A DNA stretch of 64,000 bases. Origin: Fulvivirgaceae bacterium JP3-4. GTDB lineage: Bacteria; Bacteroidota; Bacteroidia; Cytophagales; Cyclobacteriaceae. The first letter of the stretch is position 1. The number at the start of each line of letters is the position of its first letter. The translations under genes and the position numbers were made by a program. The stretch covers positions 1,612,001-1,676,000 of the forward strand of contig JARKND010000001.1 in NCBI GenBank assembly GCA_029309925.1. Reading direction: 5' to 3'. Below the pieces are notes generated by a model. The model saw nothing but the letters and a program-made list of their open reading frames with translations. It did no database searches and was not told where the DNA came from. This document shows positions 3,908 through 17,726 of the stretch, piece by piece.

Positions 3908-3931
3908 GCCGGGGTGCCGGGGATGCCGGGG
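3896..3931 (+). other. G-run tract, possible G-quadruplex, at the kdsA stop
   Basis: Four G-runs occur in 36 bp: six G at 3896-3901, then GGGG at 3911-3914, 3919-3922 and 3928-3931, the last three separated by TGCC and ATGCC. This can in principle fold as a G-quadruplex on the + strand (and in the mRNA). It forms the outermost part of the left arm of the candidate mobile element; the right outer arm (about 4735-4770) is correspondingly C-rich. Confidence 0.4.
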
Positions 3932-3955
3932 ATGGCGCGCTTCGCTTGGAAGGGT

Positions 3956-4078
3956 GGTTGCAGGTGGCAGGTTACAAGTTGCAGGTTACAGGTTGGAAAC
4001 GGTGGATGTCGGTTGACGGATTCCGTTGGCCAGTGGTGGTCTCAGTTGCAGGTTTCATGTTTCAGGTTGCAAGCAAGG
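3956..4078 (-). repeat. Heptamer array, left arm of element A (RCAGGTT units on + strand)
   Basis: Seven-base units can be read in phase: GGTTGCA, GGTGGCA, GGTTACA, AGTTGCA, GGTTACA from 3956 to 3990, then GGTTGG. A decayed middle (4004-4031: GGATGTC, GGTTGAC, GGATTCC, GTTGGCC) is followed by AGTTGCA, GGTTTCA, TGTTTCA, GGTTGCA at 4044-4071. Read on the minus strand these are AACCTGY-type units. The remaining 130 bases up to the ATG at 4214 hold no gene I can support. Confidence 0.75.
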
Positions 4079-4213
4079 TTTAGACATTTCCAGCTGTGGG
4101 ATAGCGGTTGGAGAGTGTGGGGTCGGTAAGTTATACGTTTCGGGTTTTCCTTGAAATTGCTGAGGAGTTTTACATTACCAAGGATGCTGATGGTTATGTC
4201 AAAACTGTAGGAA

Positions 4214-4579
4214 ATGAATAGTTATCGGGATCTCGAGATTTATAAGGAGTCAAGGCGACTTGCGCTTGACGTTCACCGGATGACGCTTACACTTCCCAAA
4301 TTCGAGTTGTACGAAGAGGGCTCTCAGGCAAGGCGCTGCTCAAAATCGGTCACATCAATGATCGTGGAGGGGTATGGAAGGCGGAGATACAAGAAGGATT
4401 ACATCAAATATCTGATTTATGCTCACACGGAATGCGATGAGACAAACGTCCACCTCGATTTTCTGTTTCATACAGGGTCATGGAAGGATGAACTATTTTT
4501 CAACCAGCTCACCCGCGACTACATCACATTGAGTAAAAAAATAAATAACTTCATTACTTGGGTTGAAGACAATCTTTGA
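4214..4579 (+). CDS. Four-helix-bundle protein (23S-IVP / Avd-like, TIGR02436 type)
   Basis: This 121-residue, helix-rich protein has the family hallmarks: an N-terminal 'R-D-L-E-I-Y-K' helix start, the central IVEGYGRR motif (related to the family's N-I-A-E-G-F/Y-G-R) at about residues 50-57, then YIKYLIYAHTECDE, matching the usual 'FLRFLxIAxGSxxE' helix. Family members occur in 23S rRNA intervening sequences and, as Avd, in diversity-generating retroelements; the biochemical role of stand-alone members is not known to me. No reverse transcriptase is nearby. The ATG at 4214 is the only sensible start. The gene is framed by inverted heptamer arms, and a second, diverged family member lies at 8366 in the same kind of setting. 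Confidence 0.82.
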   Translation: MNSYRDLEIYKESRRLALDVHRMTLTLPKFELYEEGSQARRCSKSVTSMIVEGYGRRRYKKDYIKYLIYAHTECDETNVHLDFLFHTGSWKDELFFNQLTRDYITLSKKINNFITWVEDNL

Positions 4580-4597
4580 GCCAGGCAAAACTCTGTC

Positions 4598-4718
4598 CAC
4601 CTGCACCTTGCGCCCTGCAATTGCAACATGTAACTTGCAACTGGCAGCTGACACCTGGCAACCAGGAACCGGTGACCTGCCGCGACCTGTAATTTGTAAC
4701 CTGTCACCTGCAACCTGT
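4598..4718 (+). repeat. Heptamer array, right arm of element A (AACCTGY units)
   Basis: About 17 units of 7 bp run nearly without phase loss: CACCTGC, ACCTTGC, GCCCTGC, a 6-bp unit, then AACATGT, AACTTGC, AACTGGC, AGCTGAC, ACCTGGC, AACCAGG, AACCGGT, GACCTGC, a 3-bp insertion, GACCTGT, AATTTGT, AACCTGT, CACCTGC, AACCTGT. The consensus is AACCTGY. The units differ by scattered substitutions but keep the period, which is unlike a freshly expanded microsatellite. It is oriented opposite to the left arm. Confidence 0.8.
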
Positions 4719-4855
4719 GACGTCAATAGACCCCCAGTTCCCTGGCCCCCCGGACACCCGGCTCCCATCTTCAACCGTTTGAACCTACCCACGAACACGT
4801 CATTTTAAAGTTTCCGCCAATTCGCGTACTTTCGTCCCTAAATTCTACAGAGTAG

Positions 4856-7272: not shown

Positions 7273-8178
7273 ATGAGCCAATATTATCTCACGCACTTAA
7301 AAGAACTTGAAGCCGAAGCCATCTACGTCATTCGTGAAGTAGTGGCGCAGTTTGAAAATCCGGCTTTGCTTTTTTCCGGTGGCAAAGACTCCATTGTGCT
7401 GGCATATCTGTCGCGCAAAGCATTCCATCCGGCAAAAATTCCTTTTCCACTCGTCCACATCGACACAGGTCATAACTTTCCTGAGACGATGGAGTACCGC
7501 GACTGGCTGATCAATGAGCTGGGCGTAAGACTCGTGGTTGGATCGGTGCAGGAAAGTATCGACAAAGGTCGTGTGAAGGAGGAGACCGGATTCAATGCAA
7601 GCCGCAATGCGCTTCAGACTGTCACGCTGCTCGATACGATCGAAAAAAATAAATTCGATGCGGCAATGGGTGGCGCAAGGCGTGATGAAGAAAAAGCGCG
7701 TGCGAAAGAACGTTTTTTCTCGCATCGCGATGAGTTCGGTCAGTGGGATCCGAAGAATCAGCGTCCGGAGTTATGGAACATCTTTAACGGACGTAAACAC
7801 ATTGGAGAACACTTCCGTGTATTTCCGATCTCAAACTGGACCGAGATGGATGTGTGGCAATACATTCACGCTGAAAATATTCCGATTCCAAAATTGTATT
7901 ATGCGCATGAACGCGAAGTGATTGTGCGTGACGGTGCGATACTGTCAACGTCACCGTGGCTGAAGCTGAAGCCGGATGAAAAACCGATGCGAAAGCGCGT
8001 GCGCTTCAGAACCTGTGGCGACATGCCGATCACGGGTGCTGTTGAGTCAGATGCCGACACACTGGAAAAGATCATCGAGGAAATTTCCATCTCGCGCAAG
8101 ACCGAACGCGGAACCCGTCACGATGACAAGCGAAGCGAAACAGCGATGGAGGATCGCAAAAAATCGGGGTACTTCTAA
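7273..8178 (+). CDS. cysD: Sulfate adenylyltransferase subunit 2
   Basis: CysD is the catalytic ATP-sulfurylase subunit that makes APS from sulfate and ATP, driven by the CysN GTPase. The PP-loop SGGKDS is at residues 35-40, and the protein shows the family's 'HIDTGHNFPE' and 'GGARRDEEKARAKER' segments plus a C-terminal 'RYRTCGD'-like stretch (here RFRTCGD). Its 301 residues are normal. In most bacteria cysN follows immediately; here 779 bp containing a four-helix-bundle gene and repeats intervene. Confidence 0.96.
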   Translation: MSQYYLTHLKELEAEAIYVIREVVAQFENPALLFSGGKDSIVLAYLSRKAFHPAKIPFPLVHIDTGHNFPETMEYRDWLINELGVRLVVGSVQESIDKGRVKEETGFNASRNALQTVTLLDTIEKNKFDAAMGGARRDEEKARAKERFFSHRDEFGQWDPKNQRPELWNIFNGRKHIGEHFRVFPISNWTEMDVWQYIHAENIPIPKLYYAHEREVIVRDGAILSTSPWLKLKPDEKPMRKRVRFRTCGDMPITGAVESDADTLEKIIEEISISRKTERGTRHDDKRSETAMEDRKKSGYF

Positions 8179-8338
8179 TGGTTTTTGGGAGGCGTTTGAG
8201 ATAACTTGTTTAGTTGTTGCGAGTTTGGTGTTTCGTGTTGGCGGAGAGTGTGATGGATGGGAGTTTAGTTTAATTATGATAGTTAAGGTTCAAAGTTTGT
8301 TTTTAGTTGTTCATAGGCCATTGACGGATTTAAGTATG

Positions 8339-8364
8339 GTTAAATTGTTTCAAAACAACTTAAC
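8339..8364. promoter_or_regulatory. 26-bp palindrome abutting the four-helix-bundle start codon
   Basis: GTTAAATTGTTT (8339-8350), a CA loop, then AAACAACTTAAC (8353-8364) form an inverted repeat with 12-bp arms and a single mismatch. It ends one base before the ATG at 8366. It could be a DNA-binding operator or an mRNA hairpin that hides the ribosome-binding region. No equally clear counterpart was seen before the element A gene. Confidence 0.5.
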
Positions 8365-8365
8365 G

Positions 8366-8842
8366 ATGGCAACTATTAAATCATTCGAAGAACTGGAAAT
8401 CTGGCAGATGGCAAGATCATTTTCGAAGAAAGTTTTTGAGCTTACCTGCGAAGGAAAGTTTGCTCGCGATTTTTCGTTGAAGGATCAAATCAATGGTTCC
8501 ACCGGATCTGTCATGGATAATATCTCCGAAGGTTTTGAGCGTGGCGGGAATCGCGAGTTCATTAATTTCCTGTCATACGCGAAAGGTTCAATAGGCGAAA
8601 GCAGATCCCAGTTGATTCGTGCATTCGATCGAAATTATGTCGATGCGAAAACATTGGCAGTTTTAAAGTCTGAAGCAATTCACATCGGAAATAAGATCGG
8701 CTCTTTAATGACGTATCTTCAAAAGTCAGAATACAAGGGGTCAAAGTTCCGCCAACAAAGAACAAAGGACTCAAAACACCCAAACCCCAAACAAACTCCA
8801 AACACAGAACCCGAAACCCCAAACCCGGAACCCGAAACTTAA
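8366..8842 (+). CDS. Four-helix-bundle protein (23S-IVP / Avd-like) with repeat-encoded tail
   Basis: The 158-residue protein resembles the one at 4214: ELEIWQMAR at the N-terminus, then VMDNISEGFERGG and EFINFLSYAKGSIGE, the core motifs of the family. An upstream open frame reaches back into cysD, but the family alignment begins at about the ATG at 8366; an ATG at 8336 is an alternative. The conserved bundle ends at about residue 122. The last 30 or so residues are rich in Asn, Pro, Glu and Thr because the frame reads into the heptamer array; this tail is probably not part of the fold. The stop codon lies inside the array. The function is unknown; the gene's position splits cysD from cysN. 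Confidence 0.8.
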   Translation: MATIKSFEELEIWQMARSFSKKVFELTCEGKFARDFSLKDQINGSTGSVMDNISEGFERGGNREFINFLSYAKGSIGESRSQLIRAFDRNYVDAKTLAVLKSEAIHIGNKIGSLMTYLQKSEYKGSKFRQQRTKDSKHPNPKQTPNTEPETPNPEPET

Positions 8843-8843
8843 A

Positions 8844-8946
8844 AACCCGGAACCTTGAACTTTGAACCCGGAACCTTAAACCCGGAACCCTGAACCCGAA
8901 ACCTTGAACCCGAAACCTTGAACTTTAAACCTTAAACTTTAAACGG
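8844..8946 (+). repeat. AACYYKR heptamer array upstream of cysN
   Basis: Fourteen consecutive 7-bp units are in perfect phase from 8844 to 8941: AACCCGG, AACCTTG, AACTTTG, AACCCGG, AACCTTA, AACCCGG, AACCCTG, AACCCGA, AACCTTG, AACCCGA, AACCTTG, AACTTTA, AACCTTA, AACTTTA, then AACGG. The first three bases are invariant and the last four vary mostly by transitions. The array continues leftward into the 3' end of the preceding CDS (units at 8822-8835). It ends 11 bp before the cysN start. Confidence 0.9.
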
Positions 8947-8957
8947 AAAAGAAGTCA

Positions 8958-10211
8958 ATGAATATAAACAACCAACTCCTCCGCTTCACCACTGCCGGGT
9001 CTGTCGATGACGGCAAATCAACGTTGATCGGGAGACTGCTGTACGATTCAAAATCGATTTTCGAAGATCAGCTTGAAGCCGTTGAAGCCTCTAGCGCGAA
9101 GAAGGGATTCGACTATGTCGATCTGTCTCTCTTAACAGACGGATTGAAGTCCGAGCGCGAGCAGGGAATCACAATCGATGTCGCGTATCGTTACTTCGCA
9201 ACGCCAAAGAGAAAGTTCATCATTGCTGACACGCCTGGTCACATCCAGTACACGCGCAACATGGTGACGGGTGCGTCAACGGCTAACCTCGCGCTGATTC
9301 TGATCGATGCCCGTAAGGGTTTGGTTGAGCAGACTTTTCGTCATTCGTTCATCGCGTCATTGTTGAAAATTCCGCACATCATCGTTTGTGTCAACAAGAT
9401 GGATCTTGTCAACTACGATGAAGCTGTATACGATCGAATCGTTGAGGAGTACAAGGCATTTTCATCGAAGCTCGAAGTTTCCGATATCCAGTTTGTGCCG
9501 ATCAGCGCTCTTGCAGGAGACAATGTTGTGAACCGCTCAGAGAAGACCACATGGTATCAGGGCGCAACGCTCATGCACATGCTCGAGACCGTGCACATCG
9601 AAAGCGACTACAACCATATCGACAGTCGTTTCCCGGTTCAGTACGTTGTGAGACCGCAGTCGAAGGAATATCACGATTACCGCGGGTATGCCGGGAGAGT
9701 AGCGGGAGGAATCTTTCGTCCGGGTGATGACGTCCTGGTGTTGCCTTCAGGTTTTAACTCGAAGATCCGCTCGATTGATTTCGGTGGGGAGCAGATTGCC
9801 GAAGCGTTTGCACCAATGTCTGTTACGATGACCCTTACAGACGAGATTGATATCAGCAGGGGAGACATCATTTGCAAGCCAAATAATCAGCCGCAGGGTG
9901 AACAGGATATCGACCTGATGTTGTGCTGGATGAATCAGCGTCCCGTGAATCTCAATACTAAGTTTTACATCCGCCATACAAGCCGTGAGGTGAGGGGAGT
10001 GCTGAAGGAAATCCAGTATAAACTCGATATCAACTCCCTGACACGAGTCGAAAATGTGGAACAACTGCAGATGAATGACATCGCCCGCGTCAAGTTGCGC
10101 ACAGCCCAGCCGTTGTTCTTCGACAGTTATCGCAAGAACCGCATTACCGGAAGTCTGATCCTTGTAGACGAAGGAACGAATGAAACGGTGGCGGCAGGAA
10201 TGATTGTGTAG
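8958..10211 (+). CDS. cysN: Sulfate adenylyltransferase subunit 1 (GTPase)
   Basis: CysN is the EF-Tu-like GTPase that powers CysD. The G1 P-loop GSVDDGKST is at residues 14-22, with DTPGH (G3) and NKMD (G4) further on, followed by beta-barrel domains. At 417 residues it lacks the C-terminal APS-kinase fusion seen in some species, consistent with the separate cysC upstream. The ATG lies 11 bp beyond a heptamer array, so its leader is largely repeat sequence. Confidence 0.95.
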   Translation: MNINNQLLRFTTAGSVDDGKSTLIGRLLYDSKSIFEDQLEAVEASSAKKGFDYVDLSLLTDGLKSEREQGITIDVAYRYFATPKRKFIIADTPGHIQYTRNMVTGASTANLALILIDARKGLVEQTFRHSFIASLLKIPHIIVCVNKMDLVNYDEAVYDRIVEEYKAFSSKLEVSDIQFVPISALAGDNVVNRSEKTTWYQGATLMHMLETVHIESDYNHIDSRFPVQYVVRPQSKEYHDYRGYAGRVAGGIFRPGDDVLVLPSGFNSKIRSIDFGGEQIAEAFAPMSVTMTLTDEIDISRGDIICKPNNQPQGEQDIDLMLCWMNQRPVNLNTKFYIRHTSREVRGVLKEIQYKLDINSLTRVENVEQLQMNDIARVKLRTAQPLFFDSYRKNRITGSLILVDEGTNETVAAGMIV

Positions 10212-10213
10212 TG

Positions 10214-10278
10214 GCAGGTTGCAAATTCCAGGTTGCAGGTGGAAAACCCGCACGACCTGCCCGAAACTTGTAACCTGC
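10214..10278 (+). terminator. Imperfect hairpin just after cysN, made of element-A-type repeat
   Basis: A left arm (10214-10240, starting GCAGGTTGCAAATT) and a right arm (10255-10278, ending CTTGTAACCTGC) pair with a few G-U-compatible transitions and a small bulge; the loop is 14 bases. There is no U-tract, so intrinsic termination is uncertain; mRNA 3'-end protection is another possibility. The left arm is nearly the same sequence as the left arm of element A at 3964-3996, differing mainly by A/G transitions, which makes this a gene-less miniature of the same repeat family. Confidence 0.5.
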
Positions 10279-10302
10279 AACTTTGAAACGCACTGAACTT
10301 TG

Positions 10303-10372
10303 AACCTTAAACCTTAAACCTTGAACCTTGAACCTTGAACCTTAAACCTTGAACCTTAAACCTTGAACCTTA
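10303..10372 (+). repeat. AACCTTR heptamer array overlapping the cysQ start
   Basis: Ten perfect 7-bp units are either AACCTTA or AACCTTG (order A,A,G,G,G,A,G,A,G,A), preceded by decayed units from about 10281. It is the most uniform array in the window and so probably the most recently expanded or homogenised. The TTG within unit 9 (10363-10365) is the only possible start of cysQ. Confidence 0.92.
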
Positions 10373-11124
10373 AACTTCTCCTCCCCACCGCCATCCTCGC
10401 TGCCGAAGCTGCGTGTGCTGAAATACTTTCAGTTTACAACTCGGGCGACTTTCAGGCCGAAGTGAAGGGTGATCATTCTCCATTGACCATTGCGGATAAA
10501 AAGGCGCATAAGGTTATCGAGGCGCTCTTGAGAGATACACAGTTACCCACCCTGAGTGAAGAGGGGAGAAATATTCCTTACGAAGAACGGAAGAATTGGA
10601 AACGCTTCTGGATGGTTGATCCGCTTGACGGCACAAAAGAATTTTTAAAAAAGAACGGAGAGTTTACAGTTAACATCGCATTGATTGAGGACGGTATTCC
10701 TGTGCTTGGCGTGGTGGCCATTCCCGTCAGCGGAGAAATTTTTTACAGCACGCGGCAGGGTGGGGCATGGAAAAAAAGCGGGGAACAGTTGCAAAAGCTT
10801 GCGCTGCGGGAACCAGCAGATCATCGCATGGCCGGTATCCGTGTCGTTGCCTCGCGGTCGCACATGAATGATGAGACTGAAAAGTTTATTGGTGGGTTAA
10901 AAGATCCTGTCCTGGTGTCGAAGGGAAGTAGTCTCAAGTTTCTTCTGATGGCAGAGGGAAAAGCCGATGTATATCCTCGCTTTGCACCCACGATGGAATG
11001 GGACACAGCAGCGGCTCATGCTATTGTGAATGAAGCAGGCCTTCACGTTTACCGTACCGACCGCCCCGAAGAACTGACCTACAACAAACCCGATCTCCTC
11101 AACCCTTACTTTATCGTTCGGTAA
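10363..11124 (+). CDS. cysQ: 3'(2'),5'-bisphosphate nucleotidase
   Basis: CysQ hydrolyses PAP to AMP, clearing the by-product of PAPS use. The 253-residue protein has the inositol-monophosphatase-fold metal motif VDPLDGTKEF at about 85-94 and the C-terminal EWDTAAAHAI signature. The N-terminus reads M-N-L-K-L-L-L-P, which fits the family, yet its first codons come from the heptamer array: the TTG start is inside repeat unit 9 and an in-frame TAA lies two codons upstream. No Shine-Dalgarno is visible. The gene completes the sulfate-activation set. Confidence 0.93.
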   Translation: MNLKLLLPTAILAAEAACAEILSVYNSGDFQAEVKGDHSPLTIADKKAHKVIEALLRDTQLPTLSEEGRNIPYEERKNWKRFWMVDPLDGTKEFLKKNGEFTVNIALIEDGIPVLGVVAIPVSGEIFYSTRQGGAWKKSGEQLQKLALREPADHRMAGIRVVASRSHMNDETEKFIGGLKDPVLVSKGSSLKFLLMAEGKADVYPRFAPTMEWDTAAAHAIVNEAGLHVYRTDRPEELTYNKPDLLNPYFIVR

Positions 11125-15356: not shown

Positions 15357-17726
15357 GTGACCCAACAGGAAATTCGGAAAGATTTCAGCAGCGCGCCCGA
15401 AAGGGGTGGTTTGCAGATCGACTATAAGCGTGTGCTGTACCGCGCGCTCCGCTACTGGTATGTCATTGCGCTTTCGCTTTTGCTCGCGCTCGTACTTGCG
15501 TTTCTGAACAACCGTTACGCACAGCGCATTTATTCAGTCTCTGCGTCCATTCTGATCAAGGAATCCAAGCAGACGCGTGGCCCTGAGCTGCTGTATTCCA
15601 ATGAGCTTACCGATCCGTATAGAAATTACTTCAATGAGATTTACATCATTCGTTCCTATCCGATGATCCAGGCCGTGCTCGAAGAACTGAACTTCGGCTC
15701 CCGTTTCTTCATGGAGGGCAATATTCTCACGAGCGAATCATACGGCTTCCCTGCAACTGCACAGGTCTTGAACAAGGATGTGATGAAAAGTTGCAGTTTC
15801 ACGTTCACCGCGCTCAACGATAACACGTTTTCACTCAGCACTGAAAATGAAAGTGTCAAGCCTGCCCAGTTCAACTACAACGACACCATTCAGTTTGGCG
15901 GGGCGATGCTTGTGTTTAGGCTGACCGATCGTGAGGCGATGCGCGCCTTCCACAACAGGCCGGTCATCTATTCCTACCTCGCACCCGAGTTTCTTTCCGG
16001 TGAGTATGTTTCGAAACTTGCTGTGAGTTGGGCCGAAGAAGGCTCAGGTGTGATGGACCTCAACGTTAACGGGCCCAACCCGCAGAAAGAAATTGATTTT
16101 ATGTACGGCCTCATCCGCCAGTACCAGCGATACGATCTTCAGAATAAAAATCAGATCGGCTCCCGGACCATCGAGTTCATCAACGATCAGCTTGGCGATA
16201 TCACCGATTCACTCAGGAATGTCGAAAACGTCCTCCAGGGATTCAAAGACAAGAACGTCATCACCGACCTGAATTCGGAGACCACACGCCTTTACAAACT
16301 GATGGAAGAAGTGGAGTTGCAGAAAACCGAAATGATCATCCGTCAGAATTACTACCAGTACCTGATGGACTACATCGAGAAAAACCAGAACCTCGACCAG
16401 GTGATCCTTCCGACAAGTGTAGGCATCAATGATGGCGTGCTCGCAGGATTCATCACCGAGATGATCAGGATTCAACTCGACCTGAAGGCAGTGGTGGGAG
16501 GTGGCGAGCGTCTTGATAACCCGCTCATCCGTCAGAAGCGAGAGCGTCTTCAGGAGATTAAGGAAAATATAATCGAGTCAGTGAAGAATCAGCAGCAGAC
16601 CGACAAGATCAGGCAGGCATCGCTGAACAAGCGCATTTCCGATATGGAGAAACAAATCGCTACTCTGCCCGAGGCTGAGCGCCAGTATATCTCGATCAAT
16701 CGTAATTATTCGCTGCTCGAAAATTTGTACATCTTCCTGCTGCAGAAACGGGCGGAGGTGAGCATTTCACAGGCATCCAACGTTACTGATATAGAAATAG
16801 TTAACCCGCCCATGTCAGGCGGTGCGATCTCCCCGAACATCAACAGGAATTACATTATAGCGGTGCTGGCTGGTCTTGGTATTCCGATCATCGCATTTGT
16901 GCTCATCGAATTGTTCAACACGCGGATCCAGTCGAAGGAAGACATCGAAAAGATTACCAATATTCCGTTCATCGGGGGCGTGGGTCACAAGCAATCCGGT
17001 GACAACAAAACGGTGCTGAACTCACCCAAGTCTGCCGTTGCCGAATCTTTCCGCGCGCTTCGTTCTAACCTAACATACTTCCTGAAACAACAGGAAAAGG
17101 CTGTGATCCTCATCACCAGTTCGATCAGTGGCGAAGGAAAAACTTTTACAACCATCAACCTTGCTACGGTGCTGGCTTTTTCCGGTCGCAAAACCCTGAT
17201 CGTTGGTGCCGACCTCAGAAGACCTAAACTCTTTGGCGATTTCGATTTGTCAAACGAAAGAGGCCTGAGTTCATACCTCGCGAAACTGACTTCGTTCGCT
17301 GATGTGGTGCAGGCTACCGGAGTTCCGAACCTCGACCTGGTGAGTGGGGGACCAGTGCCACCAAACCCGTCAGAACTGATTCTCAGCGAAAGGATGTCGG
17401 AATTTATTGCCGAGGCCAGACAGCGTTATGACTACATCGTGGTTGATAGTCCGCCATTGGCGATTGTCGCAGACGCATTTGTCCTTGCAGATCACGCTGA
17501 CCATATGCTTTACCTGACGCGTCAGAACTATACGCCAAAAAATATCCTGATGTCGCTGCAAGACCATTACAACAGCGGACGACTTAAAAATACCAGCATC
17601 GTTCTCAATGATATCTATCGGTCCGGCCCTGGCTACGGATATGGCTATGGCTACGGCTACGGTTATGGTTACGGCTATGGGTACACCAGCGGAAAGAATG
17701 GCCACGGCTACTACACCGAGAGTTAA
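15357..17726 (+). CDS. Wzc-like polysaccharide co-polymerase and BY-tyrosine kinase
   Basis: The 789-residue inner-membrane protein controls chain length and export. A Wzz domain with a first membrane helix (about 33-50) precedes a coiled-coil periplasmic region and a second helix near 499-521. The cytoplasmic kinase has Walker A SGEGKT at about 590, Walker A' VGADLRRPK near 617 and Walker B IVVDSPP near 694. The C-terminus carries nine consecutive Gly-Tyr pairs and two further tyrosines, the expected autophosphorylation cluster in an unusually regular form. The start is GTG, 4 bp after the Wza-like gene. Confidence 0.93.
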   Translation: MTQQEIRKDFSSAPERGGLQIDYKRVLYRALRYWYVIALSLLLALVLAFLNNRYAQRIYSVSASILIKESKQTRGPELLYSNELTDPYRNYFNEIYIIRSYPMIQAVLEELNFGSRFFMEGNILTSESYGFPATAQVLNKDVMKSCSFTFTALNDNTFSLSTENESVKPAQFNYNDTIQFGGAMLVFRLTDREAMRAFHNRPVIYSYLAPEFLSGEYVSKLAVSWAEEGSGVMDLNVNGPNPQKEIDFMYGLIRQYQRYDLQNKNQIGSRTIEFINDQLGDITDSLRNVENVLQGFKDKNVITDLNSETTRLYKLMEEVELQKTEMIIRQNYYQYLMDYIEKNQNLDQVILPTSVGINDGVLAGFITEMIRIQLDLKAVVGGGERLDNPLIRQKRERLQEIKENIIESVKNQQQTDKIRQASLNKRISDMEKQIATLPEAERQYISINRNYSLLENLYIFLLQKRAEVSISQASNVTDIEIVNPPMSGGAISPNINRNYIIAVLAGLGIPIIAFVLIELFNTRIQSKEDIEKITNIPFIGGVGHKQSGDNKTVLNSPKSAVAESFRALRSNLTYFLKQQEKAVILITSSISGEGKTFTTINLATVLAFSGRKTLIVGADLRRPKLFGDFDLSNERGLSSYLAKLTSFADVVQATGVPNLDLVSGGPVPPNPSELILSERMSEFIAEARQRYDYIVVDSPPLAIVADAFVLADHADHMLYLTRQNYTPKNILMSLQDHYNSGRLKNTSIVLNDIYRSGPGYGYGYGYGYGYGYGYGYTSGKNGHGYYTES
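17631..17684 (+). repeat. In-frame Gly-Tyr hexamer repeat at the kinase C-terminus
   Basis: Nine GGN-TAY codon pairs are in tandem. Both tyrosine codons and all but the pattern positions vary (GGC, GGA, GGT, GGG with TAC or TAT), so selection on the protein rather than recent slippage probably maintains it. A length change in steps of 6 bp would keep frame and alter the number of phosphorylatable tyrosines. Confidence 0.9.

Follow-up and report, generated by a model that had tools for sequence, protein, structure and literature searches.

Between the sulfate adenylyltransferase genes cysD and cysN of Fulvivirgaceae bacterium JP3-4 lies a gene for a four-helix-bundle protein of the PF05635 (23S rRNA-IVP) family, accompanied by arrays of 7-nt repeats. 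On balance, this insertion is probably a gene-bearing copy of a REP/RAYT-like system of IVP elements that operates without a transposase, in which the protein would recognise the array and promote the spread of its hairpin. The gap between the two genes measures 779 nt and occupies exactly positions 8179–8957 of the window, i.e., the whole stretch of 64,000 nt analysed here, with cysD ending at 8178 and cysN starting at 8958; in both extent and content it agrees with the initial annotation of this DNA (Table 1). That annotation had also proposed a mobile or formerly mobile element. We do find a recurring kind of element that has the four-helix bundle as its sole protein and is absent from the same junction in near relatives, whereas its movement, like the binding of the arrays by the IVP protein, is what we infer from these patterns.

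Table 1. Features of the cysD–cysN junction and of the second IVP unit (window coordinates).
Feature	Position	Strand	Evidence or remark
Left arm of second unit, heptamer GGTTGCA/GGTTACA	3955..4071	.	Repeat and inverted-pair searches
IVP gene of second unit, subfamily B	4214..4579	+	PF05635 E 1.9e-23
Right arm of second unit, inverted copy of left unit	4598..4721	.	31-nt arm, 90% complementary
cysD, sulfate adenylyltransferase small subunit, left flank	7273..8178	+	NCBIfam PRK05253.1 CysD E 6.2e-138
Left arm, eroded RGTTNNA-type array	8208..8299	.	Inverted pairs; arm score 16
IVP (four-helix-bundle) gene, subfamily A	8366..8842	+	PF05635 E 1.1e-28, TIGR02436 E 3.4e-26
Right arm, heptamer array, units e.g. 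AACCTTG, AACCCGA, AACTTTA	8774..8944	.	Tandem Repeats Finder
cysN, sulfate adenylyltransferase large subunit, right flank	8958..10211	+	TIGR02034 CysN E 1.2e-168
Gene-less inverted pair, GGTTGCA-like units, gap between cysN and next gene	10214..10290	.	Edges by eye
Gene-less heptamer array AACCTTA, about 10 copies, RGTTNNA type	10294..10375	.	Tandem Repeats Finder

The start codon of the IVP gene in the gap (an ATG) was picked by eye, and its PF05635 E-value was obtained on the open frame 8276–8839; in the whole-genome search the PF05635 match lies at C1:1620387–1620698, corresponding to 8387–8698 of the window. The two IVP proteins of the window score 100 and 83.1 bits against PF05635 (cut-off 33.8) and 91.6 and 84.4 against TIGR02436 (cut-off 24). 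Tandem Repeats Finder reports the right array with periods of 7, 14, 21 and 28, and the C-terminal tail of the subfamily A protein is translated right-array sequence. Inverted repeats flank the IVP ORF in both window units, and both units are sited between protein genes, not in an rRNA gene. In the cysD–cysN copy the inverted repeats are weak, consisting of the pairs 8208–8245/8748–8785 (71%) and 8283–8297/8921–8935 (93%), and this copy is among the weaker-armed ones (its own-arm score has rank 2 in its row). The gene-less array downstream of cysN has pattern matches at C1:1622322–1622368. Elsewhere in the window, a TGGCTA/TGGCTACGGCTA tandem repeat with a period of 6/12/18 occupies 17630–17684.

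The unit at 3908–4770 had been described as similar to the one at cysD–cysN, which proves correct for the arms and incorrect for the proteins. Scored against each other, the arms of the two units reach 16.0, which is also the own-arm score of the cysD–cysN copy, and the heptamers of both units fit RGTTNNA, whereas the proteins are 23% identical and belong to different subfamilies, which rules out that the two units are recent copies of one element. Because the arms are so alike, RGTTNNA-type arrays are not safely assigned to one unit or the other. The second unit is absent from the kdsA–transporter junction of a genome of the same genus (G002), where the junction measures about 100 nt.

The paired-array anatomy recurs throughout the own genome (G000), which has 12 PF05635 matches, 10 of them above the cut-off. 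Complementary flanking arrays with an own-arm score of at least 15 accompany all 12 loci, and 10 loci that were read singly have short-period arrays on both sides. We extended the comparison to a window-family set of 85 loci, which come from the own genome and from others of its genus and family, drawing on the best-scoring 30 family loci among the matches listed; one of the 85 was dropped from arm scoring, so that totals are 84 or 85. Own left and own right arms score 20.5 on average and reach 15 in 81% of these loci, as against 0–4% of pairs whose proteins are <45% identical and 4% of same-genome pairs whose proteins are <35% identical. Lag 7 is the best in 58 of the left and 65 of the right arms and lag 8 in 15 and 16, respectively, compared with 14 and 11 of 169 control pieces taken further out. 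Arrays have a median length of 35 to 38 nt, or about five heptamers, vs. 25 nt in controls, and the IVP gene shares the strand of both its neighbours in 72 of the 78 loci scored. Arms are unrecognisable (scores 10–12) at L035, L116, L119, L133 and L123, two of which (L035 and L116) share a junction with the armed L002; the genes at these five loci are possibly domesticated.

The repeat unit goes with the protein subfamily, an association that is strong and not one to one. For related-protein pairs across genomes (n = 67) the mean arm score is 14.81, above the maximum of 11.93 in 1000 within-genome permutations. For the 42 pairs at non-orthologous sites, defined by the lack of a common flanking gene, it is 13.06, a value that none of 2000 permutations reached (highest 12.06), and 15 of these 42 pairs score at least 15. 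At the other end of the range, the proteins of L133 and L119 are 89% identical and neither has arms, and among unrelated IVP pairs from the same genome 7 of 186, including the two window units, have a cross-arm score of at least 15. No two IVP proteins of the own genome are >47% identical. A correlation of unit with protein across phyla (0.246) was dropped as evidence, as it did not exceed arm shuffles within phylum (mean 0.258).

Arrays of the same kinds are also abundant without a gene. We sampled 864 kb of the own genome, comprising 40 pieces of 20 kb, none of which covers an IVP locus, and the window. With a minimum length of 35 nt, this sample contains 71 lag-7 and 20 lag-8 arrays, compared with 0, 3, 5, 1 and 1 at lags 5, 6, 9, 10 and 11. 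Subtracting from the 91 arrays at lags 7 and 8 the five inside the two window units leaves 86 gene-less arrays. In the own genome the gene-less form is far commoner than the gene-bearing one. An inverted partner lies within 190 nt of 45 of them, compared with 8 in the reversed control, and 65 match the arms of the 12 own IVP genes at a score of at least 18. By comparison, sets of 12 random IVP elements drawn from 30 of other family genomes match a mean of 9.9 arrays and never more than 16 (500 draws). The IVP sets of near relatives match 22 (G002), 18 (G094), 16 (G067), 14 (G001), 11 (G035) and 3 (G017) of the own arrays; the G002 set has six elements, and random own subsets of six match 35.5. 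In the 40 pieces (window left out), 84 of 85 arrays are outside ORFs, against 9.4 expected. Divergent gaps contain few of them (8 of 80, vs. 97 of 516 for all gaps) and convergent ones many (27 of 80, vs. 87 of 516).

This gene-less population form is lineage-specific, because many of the IVP-bearing genomes sampled had no array: none was seen in G017, G076 and G035 (100, 100 and 60 kb sampled), and only two of seven further IVP-bearing genomes, at 100 kb each, had any. The idea that array load tracks IVP in all IVP-bearing genomes (Spearman 0.59, p 0.034, 13 genomes) was rejected, given that five of the seven further genomes had none. In five family genomes without a PF05635 match there were 0 arrays in 100 kb each.

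Counts of individual units in nine genomes, which include overlapping matches within one array and matches in the IVP arms themselves, show that, for the most part, the unit variant of the gene-less arrays is that of the resident IVP gene, provided that this gene keeps its arms. The octamer GTGTTNAN, the unit of the IVP class of L006, occurs 52 times in G000, 26 in G017, 34 in G094 and 6 in G035, yet 0 times in G067, where a gene of the class is resident; it has 0 matches in each of the four genomes in which the class was not found (G001, G002, G026 and G076), and its reversed control has 0 in all nine. Strict GTTTRAR, a variant of the subfamily A arms in G001 and G094, has 183 and 26 matches there, 4 in G000, a single one in G002 and in G017 and none in the remaining four, with reversed controls of 2 in G001, 0 in G094, 4 in G000 and 8 in G035. 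GTTCARG, a variant that could belong to either window unit, is found 14 times in G000 (3 of them in the window array 10294–10375), once in G001 and in none of the seven others. AGCTNNA, the unit of the L002 class, has 59 matches in G000, 2 in G094 and 1 in G035; it has 0 in G001 and G067, both of which carry the protein without arms, and 0 in G017, with 5 in the reversed control.

The occupation of the cysD–cysN junction is variable. CysD matches were present in 90 genomes, of which the best 30 supplied cysD loci; two of these loci were dropped with cysN out of reach, and we read the junction in the 28 family genomes closest by CysD and in G001. An IVP gene is present in 10 of these 29 junctions, in all 10 on the cysDN strand, and none was found in the other 19; among the latter, the junction of G069 contains 235 masked bases. 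Relatives with an uninterrupted junction, which the initial annotation had recommended looking for, therefore exist, and the gene is not common to all relatives at this position; in G076, with a CysD 91% identical, a bare junction of 36 nt remains. Subfamily A occurs here in G000 and G001, subfamily B (like the window gene at 4214) in G026 and in G002, whose copy holds a stop, and the two subfamilies are 20–25% identical; the copies of G079, G089, G063, G062, G037 and G070 look by eye like further subfamilies. Arrays without an IVP gene are found at this junction in G067 (82 nt) and G035 (58 nt). At neighbouring cysC–cysD, G001 has a gene-less hairpin in a gap of 149 nt, which is 76 nt in the window and 41 nt in G002. 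The spacers of relatives are too diverged to be aligned for element ends or a target duplication. Two side observations concern the start of cysN. In G009 (L058) an array stands alone there with no IVP gene, possibly a remnant after IVP loss. In L059, L061, L066 and L068 (G089, G063, G062 and G037) the right arm seemingly lies within the cysN start as an in-frame N-terminal extension (by eye), with the IVP stop beside or overlapping the new cysN start.

A search with a Calothrix IVP gave a named set, the best 80 of at least 522 confirmed candidates, which by record titles spans Cyanobacteria, Chloroflexota, Alphaproteobacteria, Latescibacterota, Planctomycetes, Terriglobia, Fibrobacteria and Gracilibacteria. 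Four of the 80 were dropped from arm scoring, and 74 of the 76 testable loci have an own-arm score of at least 15, the exceptions being L149 (14) and an Armatimonadetes locus, L206 (10). Cross pairs in this closely related set also reach 15 in 37.6%, and the periods are therefore firmer evidence here than the arm scores: the best lag is 7 in 65 left and 67 right arms of 76, and 8 in 8 and 7. Orientation in the named set is unreliable, as antisense frames are chosen in nuo loci when the longest ORF is taken (++ was scored for 37 of 70). G exceeds C in the left arm of 70 of 74 named-set elements, vs. 43 of 74 control stretches, and in 60 of 69 window-family elements, vs. 58 of 69, so that a strand polarity of the arms is suggestive in the named set only. 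In the Fischerella genome G099, arms accompany three of five tested IVP loci. Nine plasmid-borne relatives were taken from 25 plasmid records with a match; by eye, copies on Calothrix, Nostoc, Anabaena, Geminocystis and Azospirillum plasmids have inverted heptamer arms, and the arrays beside the IVP genes of Pseudanabaena (L141) and Nostoc HK-01 (L138) read as direct. Phage records gave no match with one query.

In the named set, the nuoC–nuoD junction is split by an IVP element in 22 of the 80 loci (L208, 1345–3606, and 21 others), alphaproteobacterial by title. Two Mesorhizobium records (L208 and L213) have different units at this site. We compared distances at 21 of these loci, leaving out L174, whose nuoC and IVP genes are separated by a further gene. 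The distances of IVP follow those of the host genes weakly (Spearman 0.21 and 0.28, vs. 0.79 for nuoC against nuoD), and simple vertical inheritance at this junction is not supported. In the pair L181/L186, dS is 0.19 for IVP and 0.62 and 0.50 for its neighbours. IVP dN/dS is 0.05–0.13 in 12 of the 14 closest nuoC–nuoD pairs, with dS saturated in most.

Several known systems share parts of this anatomy. Intervening sequences of 23S rRNA with an S23p/IVP ORF have the same protein family and terminal inverted repeats, and one of our loci is such an insertion: in L142 (277–3318, Azospirillum lipoferum plasmid AZO_p2) the IVP ORF lies inside a 23S rRNA gene (RF02541), with GAGGACR heptamers on both sides by eye, where no feature is listed. 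The classical rRNA intervening sequences are thus tied to the same anatomy, and tandem heptamers upstream of the ORF are described in the available text of a study of the Coxiella intervening sequence (PMC4990558). By contrast, the elements described here are sited between protein genes, come in several unit types per genome, have gene-less relatives and show a link of unit to subfamily. REP/REPIN–RAYT systems have a distinct protein gene beside the repeats for each repeat group and many extragenic inverted doublets (for REPINs, excerpts of PMC3116915). The own genome resembles them in outline, but some unrelated IVP genes overlap in their units, as noted above, and many IVP-bearing genomes have no gene-less arrays in the stretches sampled. 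The difference is that an IS200-like tyrosine transposase is absent beside the repeats, PF05635 being the only gene recognised in each window unit (Pfam, E 0.001), that the units are tandem and of 7 or 8 nt instead of a REP palindrome, and that the protein is a four-helix bundle. In line with the earlier statement that no transposase or reverse transcriptase is present, the two IVP frames match no other Pfam family in the same search. Avd of diversity-generating retroelements resembles PF05635 in structure and sequence (excerpts of PMC10053308), and the window units differ from these retroelements in holding no reverse transcriptase.

Heptameric repeats without a protein are a further point of comparison. 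Intergenic repeats with a period of 7 include the cyanobacterial STRR sequences. GGGAATC in Xanthomonas and GGGGA(C/T)T in Nostoc are others, of which the Xanthomonas heptamers form inverted pairs in 70 and 75 cases in two genomes and those of Nostoc in few (excerpts of PMC4692102), and TAACTGA arrays occur in Beggiatoaceae (excerpts of PMC4679880). They resemble the arrays described here in their period of 7 and mostly intergenic position and differ in that, in the portions of these papers available to us, they are tied to no protein. The open-licence literature, among the papers listed and as far as their accessible text goes, gave no general link between PF05635 and heptamer arrays, and earlier work on the link may exist elsewhere.

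Taken together in a single model, such elements would form a class that pairs a PF05635 four-helix-bundle protein with inverted arrays whose cognate unit is 7 or 8 nt long, with the IVP gene placed between two arrays and some genomes containing many gene-less arrays or hairpins of the same units. An IVP oligomer would bind single-stranded DNA or RNA of the array unit, each protein subunit perhaps taking one unit. A profile of 39 relatives matches PDB 2gsc and 2rld, with five chains each, and one might speculate that the median array of about five heptamers fits one unit per subunit of a pentamer. Binding would then promote duplication or re-insertion of the array hairpin via host replication, repair or another helper, much as has been proposed for RAYT and its REPINs. 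To our knowledge, no catalytic activity has been described for the IVP protein, and cutting and joining would fall to host enzymes or a helper, IVP contributing no nuclease of its own. With gene-less arrays so dominant in number in the own genome, a protein that serves many hairpins becomes a likelier mechanism than an element that moves itself. The IVP gene would then maintain its class and seldom move, and spread would be left to the hairpins. At cysD–cysN, a subfamily A element would have been gained or exchanged in this lineage.

Other readings of the same observations have to be weighed against this model. The insertion might be a regulatory element of the operon, its arms pairing in the mRNA and RNase III or IVP acting on the stem to set the ratio of the flanking cistrons, with the gene-less arrays acting similarly; we regard this as rather unlikely, although not negligible. 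It would accommodate the shared strand of the IVP gene and both neighbours in most window-family loci and all 10 cysD–cysN cases, the low dN/dS of the protein, the cutting of its rRNA relatives by RNase III (excerpts of PMC4990558), and the reuse of cysD–cysN and, in more than a quarter of the named loci, of nuoC–nuoD; the latter could mean a host function, which would count against the IVP-element reading. However, selection on an RNA hairpin should leave G.U changes between the arms in excess of A.C changes, and the counts of 130 vs. 109 in 69 of 85 elements (16 with an arm score <15 were left out) show no clear excess or signal. The weak agreement of IVP and host distances at nuoC–nuoD and the 19 cysD–cysN junctions in which no IVP gene was found also argue against regulation, as does a Nostoc copy on the strand opposite to both of its nrd neighbours.

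An ordinary mobile-element relic, moved in trans by a reverse transcriptase or transposase with IVP as an Avd-like RNA/DNA-binding accessory, seems to us improbable. The resemblance of PF05635 to Avd (excerpts of PMC10053308) and the presence or absence of gene-bearing and gene-less units within the genus fit such a relic, whereas no target duplication is seen among relatives with spacers too diverged to align. Moreover, a resident reverse transcriptase looks dispensable, because a search for RVT_1 found nothing in the draft genome G001, which has seven PF05635 and 183 GTTTRAR matches; the single RVT_1 match of G000 falls short of the cut-off and is on contig C5, not in the window, and G002 has one above the cut-off. 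We give very little credence to a third reading, in which the arrays would be microsatellites of the host, expanded through replication slippage, and would serve IVP genes simply as places to settle. Slippage would explain the variation of the arrays in length and letters, but not that their periods are nearly only 7 and 8, that they have inverted partners and match the arms of resident IVP genes, that each of five genomes without a PF05635 match has 0 arrays per 100 kb, or that the unit tracks the protein subfamily at non-orthologous sites.

Extending the IVP-element reading beyond this family, we tentatively put forward, as an idea that we hold as somewhat short of probable, that these elements are one phylum-spanning class of repeat systems in which a nuclease-free four-helix-bundle oligomer is the specificity factor for the dispersal of its own 7- or 8-nt array hairpins, with rRNA intervening sequences as members that came to lie in rRNA and much of the unexplained heptamer content of bacterial genomes as gene-less progeny. 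If so, what the protein of rRNA intervening sequences does and where intergenic heptamers come from would become one question, namely the recognition by each IVP of its own unit. A transposase-less dispersal resembling that of REP/RAYT would then operate in many phyla, at operon junctions such as cysD–cysN, nuoC–nuoD and nrdB–nrdA, and the protein–repeat pairs would provide a set for learning a recognition code.

Further sites of IVP genes were seen in cyanobacteria. In Nostoc edaphicum (L137, 331–3312), an IVP element with GGGAGTA arms lies between the ribonucleotide reductase beta and alpha genes, in the orientation opposite to both. On plasmids of Anabaena sp. 90 and Pseudanabaena galeata (L139, 301–2549, and L141, 377–2541), the IVP gene lies between cas6 and cas4 in CRISPR operons. 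IVP appears in a figure legend on CRISPR-linked proteins (excerpts of PMC10910872), an appearance that such cas6–cas4 genes may explain.
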